Position numbers and translations under genes: made by a program. The notes beneath the pieces are model-generated. The model searched no databases and was not told the origin of the DNA. It was given only the letters and a program-made list of their open reading frames with translations. A stretch of DNA of 64,000 nucleotides from Burkholderiales bacterium (GTDB lineage Bacteria > Pseudomonadota > Gammaproteobacteria > Burkholderiales > Thiobacteraceae): NCBI GenBank assembly GCA_023511995.1, contig JAIMAL010000001.1:124001-188000 (forward strand), given 5' to 3'. Below are positions 10,509-13,770 of the stretch, in pieces; within the stretch, counting starts at the first letter, position 1, and each line of letters begins with the position of its first letter.

Positions 10509-10564
10509 TTTATACTCCGGAAAGATGAAATACCCGAGCAGTTTATTCAGGTATTAGCCCCCTG

Positions 10565-11662
10565 TCAAGGCGGCCTGTCCCGGCGGGCGGCGGGGGGTTG
10601 CCGCCGCGCCAGCGCCTTGCGCAGGAGATGGGGGAGCAGCAGGTGCAGCGGCATGCGCAGCCAGTGGCCCCGGACATAGAGGGCGAAATGGGCAAGGGCG
10701 GTGAAAGGCCCGCGGCAGCTTGCGTGCTTCGGGCGGAAGATTTCGGCCGCCAGCCCATCCATGGCAAGGCGCAGGGGCAGGGGCGGGGCGGCCTGTTGGG
10801 CTGCCTGCATCACCGCTTCCGGGATGGGGGTGCCCAACAGCCTTTGCGCGTAGCGGAGTGCGTAGAAGAGGGGCCGGGCGAGATCAAGCAGCCTGGCGCG
10901 GGGCACGAGGCCGGCATAGAAACCGGGCTCGACCGCGGCGAAATGGCGCAGCAGGCCGTCGAAATCCATGAGGTCGCGCAGGGCGCGGTCGGTCTCCCCT
11001 TCGTGGAAGAGGTGGGTGGCGCAGTGCACCACGAGATCGGCGGGACTCGGCAGGCGGAAGCCTGCCCACGGTGATGCCCGGGACGCAGCGAAGATGAGCG
11101 CGGGATCGGGGTGGTGCCGGGCAGTGAGGGGTAGCAGGGTGTGGTGGACGTCCACCACGGTCTGCCGGCGCACGTGCTCCAGGGGCGGGATTTCGTGCAT
11201 CCACCGGCGGTAGTAGCGCTGGTCGTAGGGGTCGAGTTTCATCGGCGCCCAGCCATGGGCAAGGAGCGCGCCTTCCACCTCCCTAAGCCGCGGCCGGGGC
11301 ACCAGGAGATCGATGTCGCCGAAGAGGCGGCCTTCCGCCACCGGTAGCCCCGCCGCCCCATAGGCTGCGCCCTTCAGGAGCACCACGGGAACCTCGAGGG
11401 GCGCGAGCAGCCGCCCAAGGCACTGGAATTCCCACTCCAGTGCCTGCCGCAAGCGGCTTGCCACCTGCAGCGCGGCGTCGAGGTGACGGCGGACCGCGGG
11501 CGGCACGGCATCCAGCGCTTTCGCCTCCCGCAGGCGCACGGCGAGCCGCCCGGTGAGCGCCGCCGCCCGGGCCTGGCGCAGGGCGAGGTCCCATTCGTCC
11601 GGCGAAAGGGCGGCGGCCATGGCCGGCGCACGCAGCAGGCGGAGCAGGAGGTCAGCCGTCAT
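10565..11662 (-). CDS. PF14907-type nucleotidyltransferase of the HprK-like cassette
   Basis: About 365 residues of the uncharacterised nucleotidyltransferase family PF14907. The catalytic motif of the polymerase-beta fold is GRLFGDIDLLVPRPRL, with the paired acidic residues DID, preceded by VVLLKGAAYGAAGLPVAEG. A second half is helical and His-rich (VDVHHTLLPLTARHH, LVVHCATHLFHEGE). The start is ATG at 11662, which overlaps the kinase gene stop by 11 bases; a longer open frame to 11728 would run inside the kinase gene. Members also occur in lasso-peptide clusters beside HprK-like kinases. Substrate unknown. It is the last gene of the four-gene cassette. Confidence 0.82.
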   Translation of the reverse strand: MTADLLLRLLRAPAMAAALSPDEWDLALRQARAAALTGRLAVRLREAKALDAVPPAVRRHLDAALQVASRLRQALEWEFQCLGRLLAPLEVPVVLLKGAAYGAAGLPVAEGRLFGDIDLLVPRPRLREVEGALLAHGWAPMKLDPYDQRYYRRWMHEIPPLEHVRRQTVVDVHHTLLPLTARHHPDPALIFAASRASPWAGFRLPSPADLVVHCATHLFHEGETDRALRDLMDFDGLLRHFAAVEPGFYAGLVPRARLLDLARPLFYALRYAQRLLGTPIPEAVMQAAQQAAPPLPLRLAMDGLAAEIFRPKHASCRGPFTALAHFALYVRGHWLRMPLHLLLPHLLRKALARRQPPAARRDRPP

Positions 11663-12563
11663 GGGCGAGCCCATCGAAGACCGCCAGCGCATCGGTGAGC
11701 CGGCTGTAGGTGAAGTCGTAACAGTCACAGGCAGCGATCAGGCGCACCAGGGTCTCGTAGCCCACCTCCCCCAGCACGCTGTAATTGAAGCCATTGCGGG
11801 CGAATTCCAGCAGGGCATGCCCCCGCGCATGGGGTGTGAGGCGGGGCGCTGAGGCCGGCACATAGCGGGGAAAGATCACCCAGGCGGGCCGCGCCGGCTC
11901 GTCCATGCGCGCCACACTGTCGGTAGGGGGGCGCATGTGGGTGACCAGCCCCTTGCGCGTATCCCGGGCCGGCGGCCCGAACACGGCCTCCGGCGCCCAG
12001 GCGCGGAGGAGTTCCACCGAGGCGTTCTTGAGATTCACCGGCCGTGCCAGCCCGTGCACGAGGCCGCTCGCCGGATCGATCAGGGCGAGCTCGTCGGAAA
12101 GGAGGCGCCAGCCCCGCTGCACCAGGGCGGCGGTGAGGGTGCTCTTGCCCGAGCCGGGGGGCGCGGGCAGGAGAGCGGCGCGGCCCCCCTTTTCGATCAC
12201 CGCCGCATGCAGGATGAGAAACCAGTGGGCGTGCTGGGTCACCGCCCAGTTGAGCCCCCACTCCAGCATGGGGAAGGCGTGATCATAGGGCAGGGGCTTG
12301 AAGGGCTCGGTGTCATCGAAGGCGAACCTGACCTGGGGCCGAAAAAAGCGGCGCAGCCCCAGGGGACGGAAAACGCGGACGGTAAAGTCGCAGAAGACCG
12401 GCTCTTCCAGCACCGGGTGTTCGGCGTAGAGCACTGCCAGGGCCTCTTCCACGGCGGGGATGCGGCTTCGGATGCGCACCGTGAAAGGCCCGGTGCGCAG
12501 GCAAAGCCCGGCGCCGTGAAGCCGATGCTTGAGCTCAGCGGGGGCAAGTTCAGAGAGTTTCAC
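11652..12563 (-). CDS. HprK-related kinase A
   Basis: A 303-residue protein related to the C-terminal kinase domain of HPr kinase/phosphorylase. The P-loop is APPGSGKST at residues 134-142, preceded by ILHAAVIEKGGRAALLP. The acidic motif LSDELALIDP follows at about residue 155, as in HprK's ADD region. It lacks HprK's N-terminal domain, and no HPr or PTS gene is near. Families with this layout are named HprK-related kinase A and are found with a PqqD-like protein and a nucleotidyltransferase, which is the arrangement here. The target is unknown. HprK-like kinases in some lasso-peptide clusters phosphorylate the peptide's C-terminal Ser, which is only an analogy. Confidence 0.85.
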   Translation of the reverse strand: MKLSELAPAELKHRLHGAGLCLRTGPFTVRIRSRIPAVEEALAVLYAEHPVLEEPVFCDFTVRVFRPLGLRRFFRPQVRFAFDDTEPFKPLPYDHAFPMLEWGLNWAVTQHAHWFLILHAAVIEKGGRAALLPAPPGSGKSTLTAALVQRGWRLLSDELALIDPASGLVHGLARPVNLKNASVELLRAWAPEAVFGPPARDTRKGLVTHMRPPTDSVARMDEPARPAWVIFPRYVPASAPRLTPHARGHALLEFARNGFNYSVLGEVGYETLVRLIAACDCYDFTYSRLTDALAVFDGLAHDG

Positions 12564-12637
12564 AGGGGCGGGGGTGGGCCGGGTGGCTGACGGTGGAGAG
12601 GCGGCGCCTGAAGAGGGGCACGGCCGGCGGTGCTGCT

Positions 12638-12916
12638 TCAGGGGGACACCAGGACCAGGTGCACGCGTTCCAGGGCGGCGAGCGCCGTTTCCATGGCCGC
12701 CCGCTCGTCGCTGCCGAGGGCGGCCAAGGGGCGATCCATGAGGGCGAGGGCCAGCTCTTCGAGCCCCATGGGGCCGTTTTGGAGACAGGATAGGACCTGA
12801 CCGGCGAAAGGGTCAAGGAGGTGGGTATCGCCGCTTGACGTGTGGAAGACGGTGTAACCATCCTCCCAGGCGGCAAGACGCACCTCCGGGGCAATGCGCC
12901 AGCGGGGGCCACTCAC
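12638..12916 (-). CDS. PqqD-like protein of the HprK-related system
   Basis: A 92-residue protein with the PqqD/RRE-like pattern: an N-terminal beta part (WRIAPEVRLAAWEDGYTVFHTSSGDTHLLDP) followed by helices (AGQVLSCLQNGPMGLEELALAL). PqqD-type domains bind leader peptides of ribosomally made, modified peptides and present them to enzymes. The GTG start overlaps the stop of the exported-protein gene (GTGA), so the two are translationally coupled. That coupling makes the exported protein a candidate client. A 74-base gap without a visible gene separates it from the kinase. Confidence 0.75.
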   Translation of the reverse strand: MSGPRWRIAPEVRLAAWEDGYTVFHTSSGDTHLLDPFAGQVLSCLQNGPMGLEELALALMDRPLAALGSDERAAMETALAALERVHLVLVSP

Positions 12917-13569
12917 GGGATGGGGTTACCGTGGGCGTCGTAGCCGCAATAGAGGCTGTTGTACTGATCCCACTCCGCCTTCAGTTGGGTGAGGGCGGCG
13001 CCGCAGTCCAGTGCGGCGTTGTCGAAGGCAGCCTGGAAGGCATTGATCACCTTCTGCGGCGTGTCGTACTGGGGCAGATAACGCCAGGCGAAGGTCGCCG
13101 CGTTAAGGAGCGCCGCCACCGCATGGAAGGCGGCGTTGCGGACCTTCCCGTAGTAATCCTTGTGGTTTTGGCAGGCGGGGGGGATGCTTGCCAGATCAAG
13201 CTTTTTGGACTGCTGGGCGACCTCGCCCAGGGTGGCGTTGTTCTTGAACACATTGCGCCCGAACACGGTGTTGAACACCATCTGGGGCAGGTAGAGATTG
13301 TCCGTGAGTCCTCCCCACACCTCCGGATGCTGACCCCAGTAGCCGGGGCTGCAGCCGCACTGCACCGGGCTTTGGCCTTGGGAGAGGTTGCCGGAAAGGA
13401 TGGCCGAGCGGGTGCACTGGTTGGCCCCCAAAACGGGGTGACTCACCAGGGTGAGCAGGACACCGGAGCCGGCGAGCCCGCCCCGGGTGAAGCGCCGCCG
13501 GCTTTCATCGACCCTGCCGGGTTCGCTTTTGGCCTGCCTGACGTTCTCGTCTTTGCCTGAATCCACCAT
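12913..13569 (-). CDS. Exported Cys-rich protein with GYWxxHPxxW motif, lead gene of the HprK-related cassette
   Basis: About 218 residues. The N-terminus is Tat-like: charged, then ESRRRFTRGGLAGSGVLLTLV and a likely signal peptidase site near VLGANQ. The mature part has six cysteines (NQC, QCGC, PAC, LDC, YCG) and the motif CGCSPGYWGQHPEVW, seen in assorted secreted proteins of unknown role. The rest is mostly helical and ends DAHGNPIP. The ATG at 13569 has AGGAG upstream; an open frame to 13629 lacks one. Its GTGA overlap with the PqqD-like gene suggests it is the substrate or target of the cassette. No enzyme motif is recognised. Confidence 0.7.
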   Translation of the reverse strand: MVDSGKDENVRQAKSEPGRVDESRRRFTRGGLAGSGVLLTLVSHPVLGANQCTRSAILSGNLSQGQSPVQCGCSPGYWGQHPEVWGGLTDNLYLPQMVFNTVFGRNVFKNNATLGEVAQQSKKLDLASIPPACQNHKDYYGKVRNAAFHAVAALLNAATFAWRYLPQYDTPQKVINAFQAAFDNAALDCGAALTQLKAEWDQYNSLYCGYDAHGNPIP

Positions 13570-13770
13570 GGAATACTCCTCGCGCCTTGGGCCGGTGGCA
13601 GCCGGCCGCCCCTCACCGGAAAAAAACAATGCAAGAATCGCGCCATGCCGTCATGATGCAACAAAATCATGGCAAAACAGGGACATGGCCAAAAGACAGG
13701 GGCTGCCCCGCGCTCCCTTTCGGGGGGAAGTGTAAAGTTTCCCGACAGGCTCCGCCAGCGCGCGAGGCGC

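Follow-up and report, generated by a model that had tools for sequence, protein, structure and literature searches.

Linear polyphosphorylated peptides (LPPs) involve the proteins LppA, LppK, LppB, LppN, LppS, and LppD (PMC13381572, Nat Commun 2026). Their motif is YxxPxVLxHQxIxFETxxS: LppB, which is a RiPP recognition element (RRE; RiPPs are ribosomally synthesized and post-translationally modified peptides), binds the Tyr, and the HprK-like kinase LppK phosphorylates S3 of the core (PMC13381572). LPP systems are reported to be restricted to Bacillota, and their clusters sit in polysaccharide loci (PMC13381572). In the tailoring of lasso peptides (paeninodin-type, and pseudomycoidin), a homologue of HPr kinase adds phosphate to a Ser in a peptide with a leader, and for pseudomycoidin, a nucleotidyltransferase adds one or more hexoses to the phosphate (PMC8498205). 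Here we describe a four-gene cassette in a 64,000-nucleotide stretch of DNA from a Burkholderiales bacterium of the Thiobacteraceae (contig JAIMAL010000001.1, positions 124,001 to 188,000), which we will call the window. The cassette encodes an exported protein (the client), a PqqD-like protein, an HprK-like kinase, and a nucleotidyltransferase-like protein. We think it fairly likely that this is an LPP-like, RRE-guided phosphorylation system for its own protein, which would be exported by twin-arginine translocation (Tat). Phosphorylation would occur near the mature N-terminus and before export, perhaps followed by decoration by the nucleotidyltransferase-like protein.

The four genes (10565-13569, minus strand; Table 1) are intact and closely packed, with no internal stops in the open reading frames of the window. 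This agrees with a preliminary description of the locus, which was made from the sequence alone, and the family assignments given there are borne out by scores above the families' cut-offs. In NCBIfam (release 20.0), the kinase matches TIGR04352 with 394 bits (cut-off 200) and the PqqD-like protein matches TIGR04353 with 54.6 bits (cut-off 35); these two families are named as the "HPr-rel-A system" (HprK_rel_A and PqqD_rel_X). In Pfam, the nucleotidyltransferase matches PF14907 (NTP_transf_5) with 194.4 bits (gathering cut-off 31.2), across positions 2-249 of the 249 in the profile. The kinase falls below the cut-offs for genuine HprK (15.5 of 240 bits for TIGR00679 and 14.7 of 33.3 bits for PF07475). 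Since a genuine HprK is encoded elsewhere in the same genome (G000:C15:63732-63902, locus L002; 362 bits for TIGR00679), the cassette's kinase is not the housekeeping enzyme. Its invariant residues are G137, G139, K140, T142, D157, and E158, and an alignment of its profile to HprK structures covers the P-loop, the Asp region that follows, and His119 (E = 0.002). The D-x-D motif of the nucleotidyltransferase is widely conserved among the other loci; this protein had no match among PDB sequences. As for the client, it matches no family in Pfam or NCBIfam, nor do 86 aligned relatives have any match there above the chance level. In the open-licence literature, we found no description of the cassette and no mention of TIGR04352, TIGR04353, or HPr-rel-A. 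In short, the kinase, PqqD, and nucleotidyltransferase families were already named; what we add is the client, the logic of its leader, and the connections to both LPPs and short peptides that have Tat-type leaders.

The client is a nearly constant partner of the enzymes. Of 321 genomes sampled from the window's class, 33 have a protein that scores above the TIGR04352 cut-off. A genome scan supplied another 80 named loci, for a total of 113 kinase loci (with at least two duplicates among them), of which all 113 have the PqqD-like gene, 112 have a client, and 111 have the nucleotidyltransferase. The only locus without a client (L057) is on a contig that stops about 265 bp short of the PqqD gene, and the two loci without the nucleotidyltransferase (L058 and L146) are on contigs that are short and break off not far past the kinase gene. 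The client is immediately upstream of the PqqD gene in 107 loci and behind the nucleotidyltransferase gene in five; two loci have two clients. A profile of the full-length client has matches in 24 of the 33 kinase-positive genomes and in 0 of the 288 kinase-negative genomes (Fisher test, 4e-29; this value is only indicative because the sampled genomes are related to one another). The linkage of the four genes is near-obligate and far beyond chance. According to the preliminary description, the idea of a client would fail if similar cassettes routinely lacked the exported protein; given its presence in all but one locus, they do not. In L052, L054, L059, L061, L062, and L063, the nucleotidyltransferase gene is divergent and upstream of the client, and in 6/6 of these the client's mature part is unlike the GYW type. 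A family of open reading frames antisense to the kinase (34 loci) turned out to be a mechanical artefact.

Table 1. Features of the cassette and its surroundings in the window, and short proteins with related leaders.
Feature	Position or locus	Strand	Remarks
Client, Tat-type exported protein, 218 aa	12913..13569	-	ATG start; family built from 112 loci
AGGAG ribosome-binding site ahead of client start	13576..13580	-	sequence
Leader, client residues 20-48: R24-R25, hydrophobic stretch, signal-peptidase-type site (VLG/A)	13426..13512	-	conservation in relatives
Post-leader motif C52-T-x-S55-A-I-L-S59-G-N-L-S63; proposed modification site	13381..13416	-	conservation; candidate phospho-acceptors S55, S59
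Mature domain from C71, mostly helical, GYWxxHPxxW near start	12913..13359	-	AlphaFold2 pLDDT (predicted local distance difference test) mostly >90
PqqD-like protein (RRE fold), TIGR04353, 92 aa	12638..12916	-	GTG start overlaps client stop
HprK-related kinase A, TIGR04352, 303 aa	11652..12563	-	GTG start; P-loop PGSGKST, H119, D157-E158
PF14907 nucleotidyltransferase-like protein, 365 aa, GDIDLLV (D-x-D)	10565..11662	-	ATG start; overlaps kinase end by 11 bp
Promoter-like site TTGACA-17-TAAACT before downstream glutaredoxin gene	10540..10568	-	consensus match only
Short Tat-leader proteins	L201 (three tandem), L183, L184, L185, L186, L187, L192, L193, L195, L204-L209		

The mean column identity among the 86 aligned clients is just 14%. 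R24 is conserved in 85 of them and R25 in all 86, TLxSRP is conserved as well, and so are the residues just past the leader: C52 (86/86), S55 (85/86), S59 (86/86), S63 (70/84), and C71 (80/85). A profile of the leader matches 111 of the 112 clients, and the remaining client is cut by the start of its contig. The mature domain is present in 104 of the 112, while the other eight clients (L041, L043, L052, L054, L059, and L061-L063) have unrelated mature parts. Because the Tat-type leader stays while these mature parts differ, it is the leader, not GYWxxHP, that defines the client; many clients have GYWxxHPxxW, but not all. The preliminary description had expected a gene with both GYWxxHPxxW and a Tat-like N-terminus ahead of the PqqD-like gene, which holds for the leader, and usually, but not always, for the gene order and the mature domain. 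The leader can also be told apart from other Tat-like sequences: with a 31-residue profile of the leader alone, the leaders of the cassettes have a median of 39.6 bits (leave-one-out) and 55 of 58 are above 25.3 bits, and the best match to an ordinary Tat-like sequence in the genome sample is about 25 bits.

From its sequence, the leader is probably a Tat signal. It has a twin-arginine motif, a hydrophobic region, and a signal-peptidase-type site, and the genome encodes TatC of the Tat translocase. The client in the window has no match to TIGR01409. We also considered that C52 might be a lipoprotein cysteine, but the preceding residues do not form a lipobox. Clients are not confined to the cassette: an open reading frame of L202 (4905-6101, minus strand; G296:C20) contains a second client of full size, encoded in trans on a contig that does not carry the cassette. 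The in-trans client of L202 and the cis client of L049 have APVLMSIPGRQVFA in common. The mature domain without the leader is also found in secreted multidomain proteins (L177:520-1947, L179, and L180), as a GYW...LNA...CPL domain at or near the C-terminus that is unnamed in Pfam.

In an AlphaFold2 model of the client, the mature domain is confidently predicted, and the leader and the C52-S63 tail are poorly predicted. Because the tail is conserved, apparently flexible, and beside the cleavage site, it looks like a modification site. The modeled fold has no match in PDB with E < 1 (Foldseek), and no match with Z of 5 or more with VIA-align 2 (the best was 4.9, mostly to designed helical proteins), although this does not by itself show that the fold is new. 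For the PqqD part of a homologue, the best fold matches of the model are the lasso RREs TbiB1 and TfuB1 in complex with leader peptides (probability 1.00, E = 0.02-0.14). These matches, and the publication of a system with the same three types of enzyme that phosphorylates a Ser beside the leader (PMC13381572), favor the view that the cassette is a modification system, as had been suggested before. For the accompanying suggestion of nucleotidylation, we found no support other than the family name, and the nearest characterised enzyme of this type is reported to add hexose to phosphate (PMC8498205).

Genomes with more divergent HprK-like kinases encode short proteins (56-149 aa) with the same leader. 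Some of these short clients are in tandem beside the kinase and PqqD, and others are on other contigs of the same genome. Those that were scanned against NCBIfam had only weak, sub-threshold matches. All 21 of 21 short clients have [Y/F]xxPx[VILM] 9-13 residues past the RR, and 20 of 21 have Gly-Ser after the leader. In most of them the Tyr and the Ser are 19-20 residues apart, as compared to 18 in the LPP motif. (YxxP has a background rate of 1/20 in other Tat-like open reading frames, but this came from a crude filter and we do not use it as proof.) In most pairs of paralogous short clients, the leaders are more alike than the remainder. Where TbiB1 has Asp in the alignment, the PqqD proteins from loci with short clients have Asp (6/7) or Glu (1/7), and this Asp probably corresponds to the Asp of LppB that binds the Tyr. 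At the same position, the TIGR04353 set rarely has Asp (5 of about 111), and the leaders there are without the Tyr. Judging from these alignments, both the leader Tyr and, in most cases, the Asp that would be its partner have been lost from the TIGR04353 branch. Furthermore, in L067, L068, and L189, the PqqD domain is naturally fused to the N-terminus of the HprK-like kinase, and the fusions in L068 and L189 adjoin genes for short Tat-leader proteins. In L197, a protein (L197:4143-4859) with a C-terminal PqqD domain (PF05402) has a start that, by eye, resembles a signal peptidase (EGMSMAPLLLPGDQV), and an HprK-like kinase follows. Pfam detects only the PqqD domain in this protein and no peptidase family; L197 is possibly an LPP-type cluster outside Bacillota.

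Several observations count against our proposal. The leader in the window has GLAGSGVLL and no YxxP, and [YWF]xxPx is found in just 1 of the 86 TIGR04353-type leaders. (The weaker pattern hydrophobic-xxP is in 22/86 long leaders, but we do not count this as support.) Because nearly all of the TIGR04353-type leaders are without YxxP, recognition must differ from that of the LPP RREs. LppN had no detectable activity in a heterologous LPP system (PMC13381572), so the case for a nucleotidyltransferase step is weak in the closest relative, too. We also modeled the client and PqqD together with AlphaFold2, as a single chain of read-through client, spacer, and PqqD from loci that have both in one frame (with stops read as Gly). 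This model, which bears on the binding test set in the preliminary description, gave no confident docking, and the leader was unstructured (pLDDT about 40-52), although a single chain with a long linker can miss the docking of a short peptide. Finally, counting from the RR, the position of the GS serine corresponds to the invariant C52 of the long clients, and the conserved Ser are 3 and 7 residues later. Cys might be the modified residue, or the modification might be of another kind. In particular, the kinase and nucleotidyltransferase might attach a group to C52 (with C71), or the two Cys might form a disulfide while the enzymes act elsewhere on the client. The near-invariance of both Cys is in keeping with this idea, but several short clients keep GS and have no Cys near the leader, and Ser is the reported target of related kinases (PMC8498205, PMC13381572), so we consider it unlikely.

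The undocked model also bears on whether the enzymes and the client touch at all. The operon might be a conserved one whose enzymes work in the same process as the exported protein but do not have it as a substrate, which would make the client a mere neighbour. This seems very unlikely to us, as it is at odds with the co-variation of the leader's Tyr and PqqD's Asp and with the in-trans clients that carry the same leader. The leader is also kept while the mature parts are replaced, which favors contact between enzymes and client.

Exosortase (PF09721) is encoded in 30 of the 33 kinase-positive genomes and 74 of the 288 kinase-negative genomes. Many of the loci adjoin PrsT and apparent response-regulator and polysaccharide-export genes, of which our family scan confirmed PrsT only. 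These associations with exosortase and polysaccharide loci point to a role at the cell surface, likely in the cell envelope or the exopolysaccharide matrix. In the open-licence literature, we found no paper that combines PEP-CTERM, exosortase, and HprK. Given this context and the Tat-like leader, we considered that the PqqD-like protein might be a Tat proofreading chaperone, with a role like that of TorD or DmsD: it would hold the client until it is folded or bound to a partner, while the kinase and nucleotidyltransferase act on an envelope or polysaccharide substrate. This is improbable given the PqqD-kinase fusions beside Tat-leader genes in the divergent relatives, and given that the same three enzyme types modify a leader-bearing peptide in LPPs (PMC13381572). 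In 24 loci (such as L141:3153-4037, L040:4832-5620, and L034:8604-9374), a secreted Trypsin_2-type (HtrA-like) protease is encoded, often a few kb or less from the cassette; it is a possible processing partner. In the window, the cassette is flanked by housekeeping genes: gcvPB, dgkA, and glutaredoxin on one side, and prmC, prfA, and hemA on the other. Relatives of prmC, prfA, hemA, or glutaredoxin also border the cassette in several loci from Thiobacillus, Hydrogenophilales, and Sulfuriferula. The promoter-like site ahead of the glutaredoxin gene suggests that the operon ends at the nucleotidyltransferase.

Our proposal of leader-guided phosphorylation would work as follows. The PqqD-like protein, as a discrete RRE, would bind the client's leader, which would simultaneously be its Tat signal peptide, in the cytoplasm. 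The Ser/Cys-rich tail just past the signal-peptidase site would be presented by the RRE to the HprK-like kinase, which would phosphorylate S55 and/or S59, and more than one phosphate might be added. Next, the PF14907 protein may attach a group to the phosphate, a hexose by analogy with pseudomycoidin. The folded and tagged client would leave by Tat, and an ordinary signal peptidase would cut off the leader. We infer the binding of the leader by PqqD, the chemistry and its site, the export route, and the role from the observed gene linkage and sequence features. More tentatively, the cassette may belong to a large class of RRE-guided kinase systems in Pseudomonadota that read Tat signal peptides as RiPP leaders and phosphorylate (perhaps also glycosylate) N-terminal tails before export. 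The clients of this class would be as small as peptides of about 30 residues and as large as folded proteins of about 170 residues, and its HPr-rel-A branch would act on a secreted domain that is tied to genomes with exosortase and exopolysaccharide genes. If this is correct, then a single leader is both an export signal and a modification tag, and tagging before export may extend beyond small peptides to folded exported proteins. A system that the databases list with unknown function would gain a substrate, a likely chemistry, and a prediction at the level of residues, and the LPP peptides of Bacillota would be linked to a group found in a tenth of the sampled genomes of the window's class (33/321).

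Compared to the described systems, the cassette has the same kinase and PqqD families as HPr-rel-A, for which we found no client model in NCBIfam. It resembles lasso tailoring in having a PqqD-like RRE, but in lasso peptides the phosphorylated Ser is C-terminal, in a short core (PMC8498205), unlike what we propose, and none of the window's flanking genes encodes a lasso macrolactam synthetase (C) or a B2 leader peptidase. The cassette and the LPP systems both have a discrete RRE, an HprK-like kinase, and an NTP transferase in one cluster (LppN is likened by enzyme type). LPP precursors, of 35-200 aa, have a conserved N-terminus, a variable C-terminus, and a Ser just past the leader, as clients do; furthermore, the short Tat-leader relatives have YxxPx[VIL] and nearly the same distance to the Ser. 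There are also differences. The cassette's leader is a Tat-type signal, and a folded domain (about 150 aa) is part of the client. The YxxPxVL leader motif is not in the window's client, in line with the apparent loss of the leader Tyr across the TIGR04353 branch. And the genes that flank the window's cassette include no SipW-like (archaeal-type) signal peptidase or MsbA-like transporter, which would be explained if Tat and an ordinary signal peptidase suffice. The cassette would work like an LPP system but lacks the two LPP-defining features that we tested, namely the leader motif and the peptidase and transporter genes. On sequence grounds, it looks like a branch of an LPP-like class in which the details of recognition have changed.

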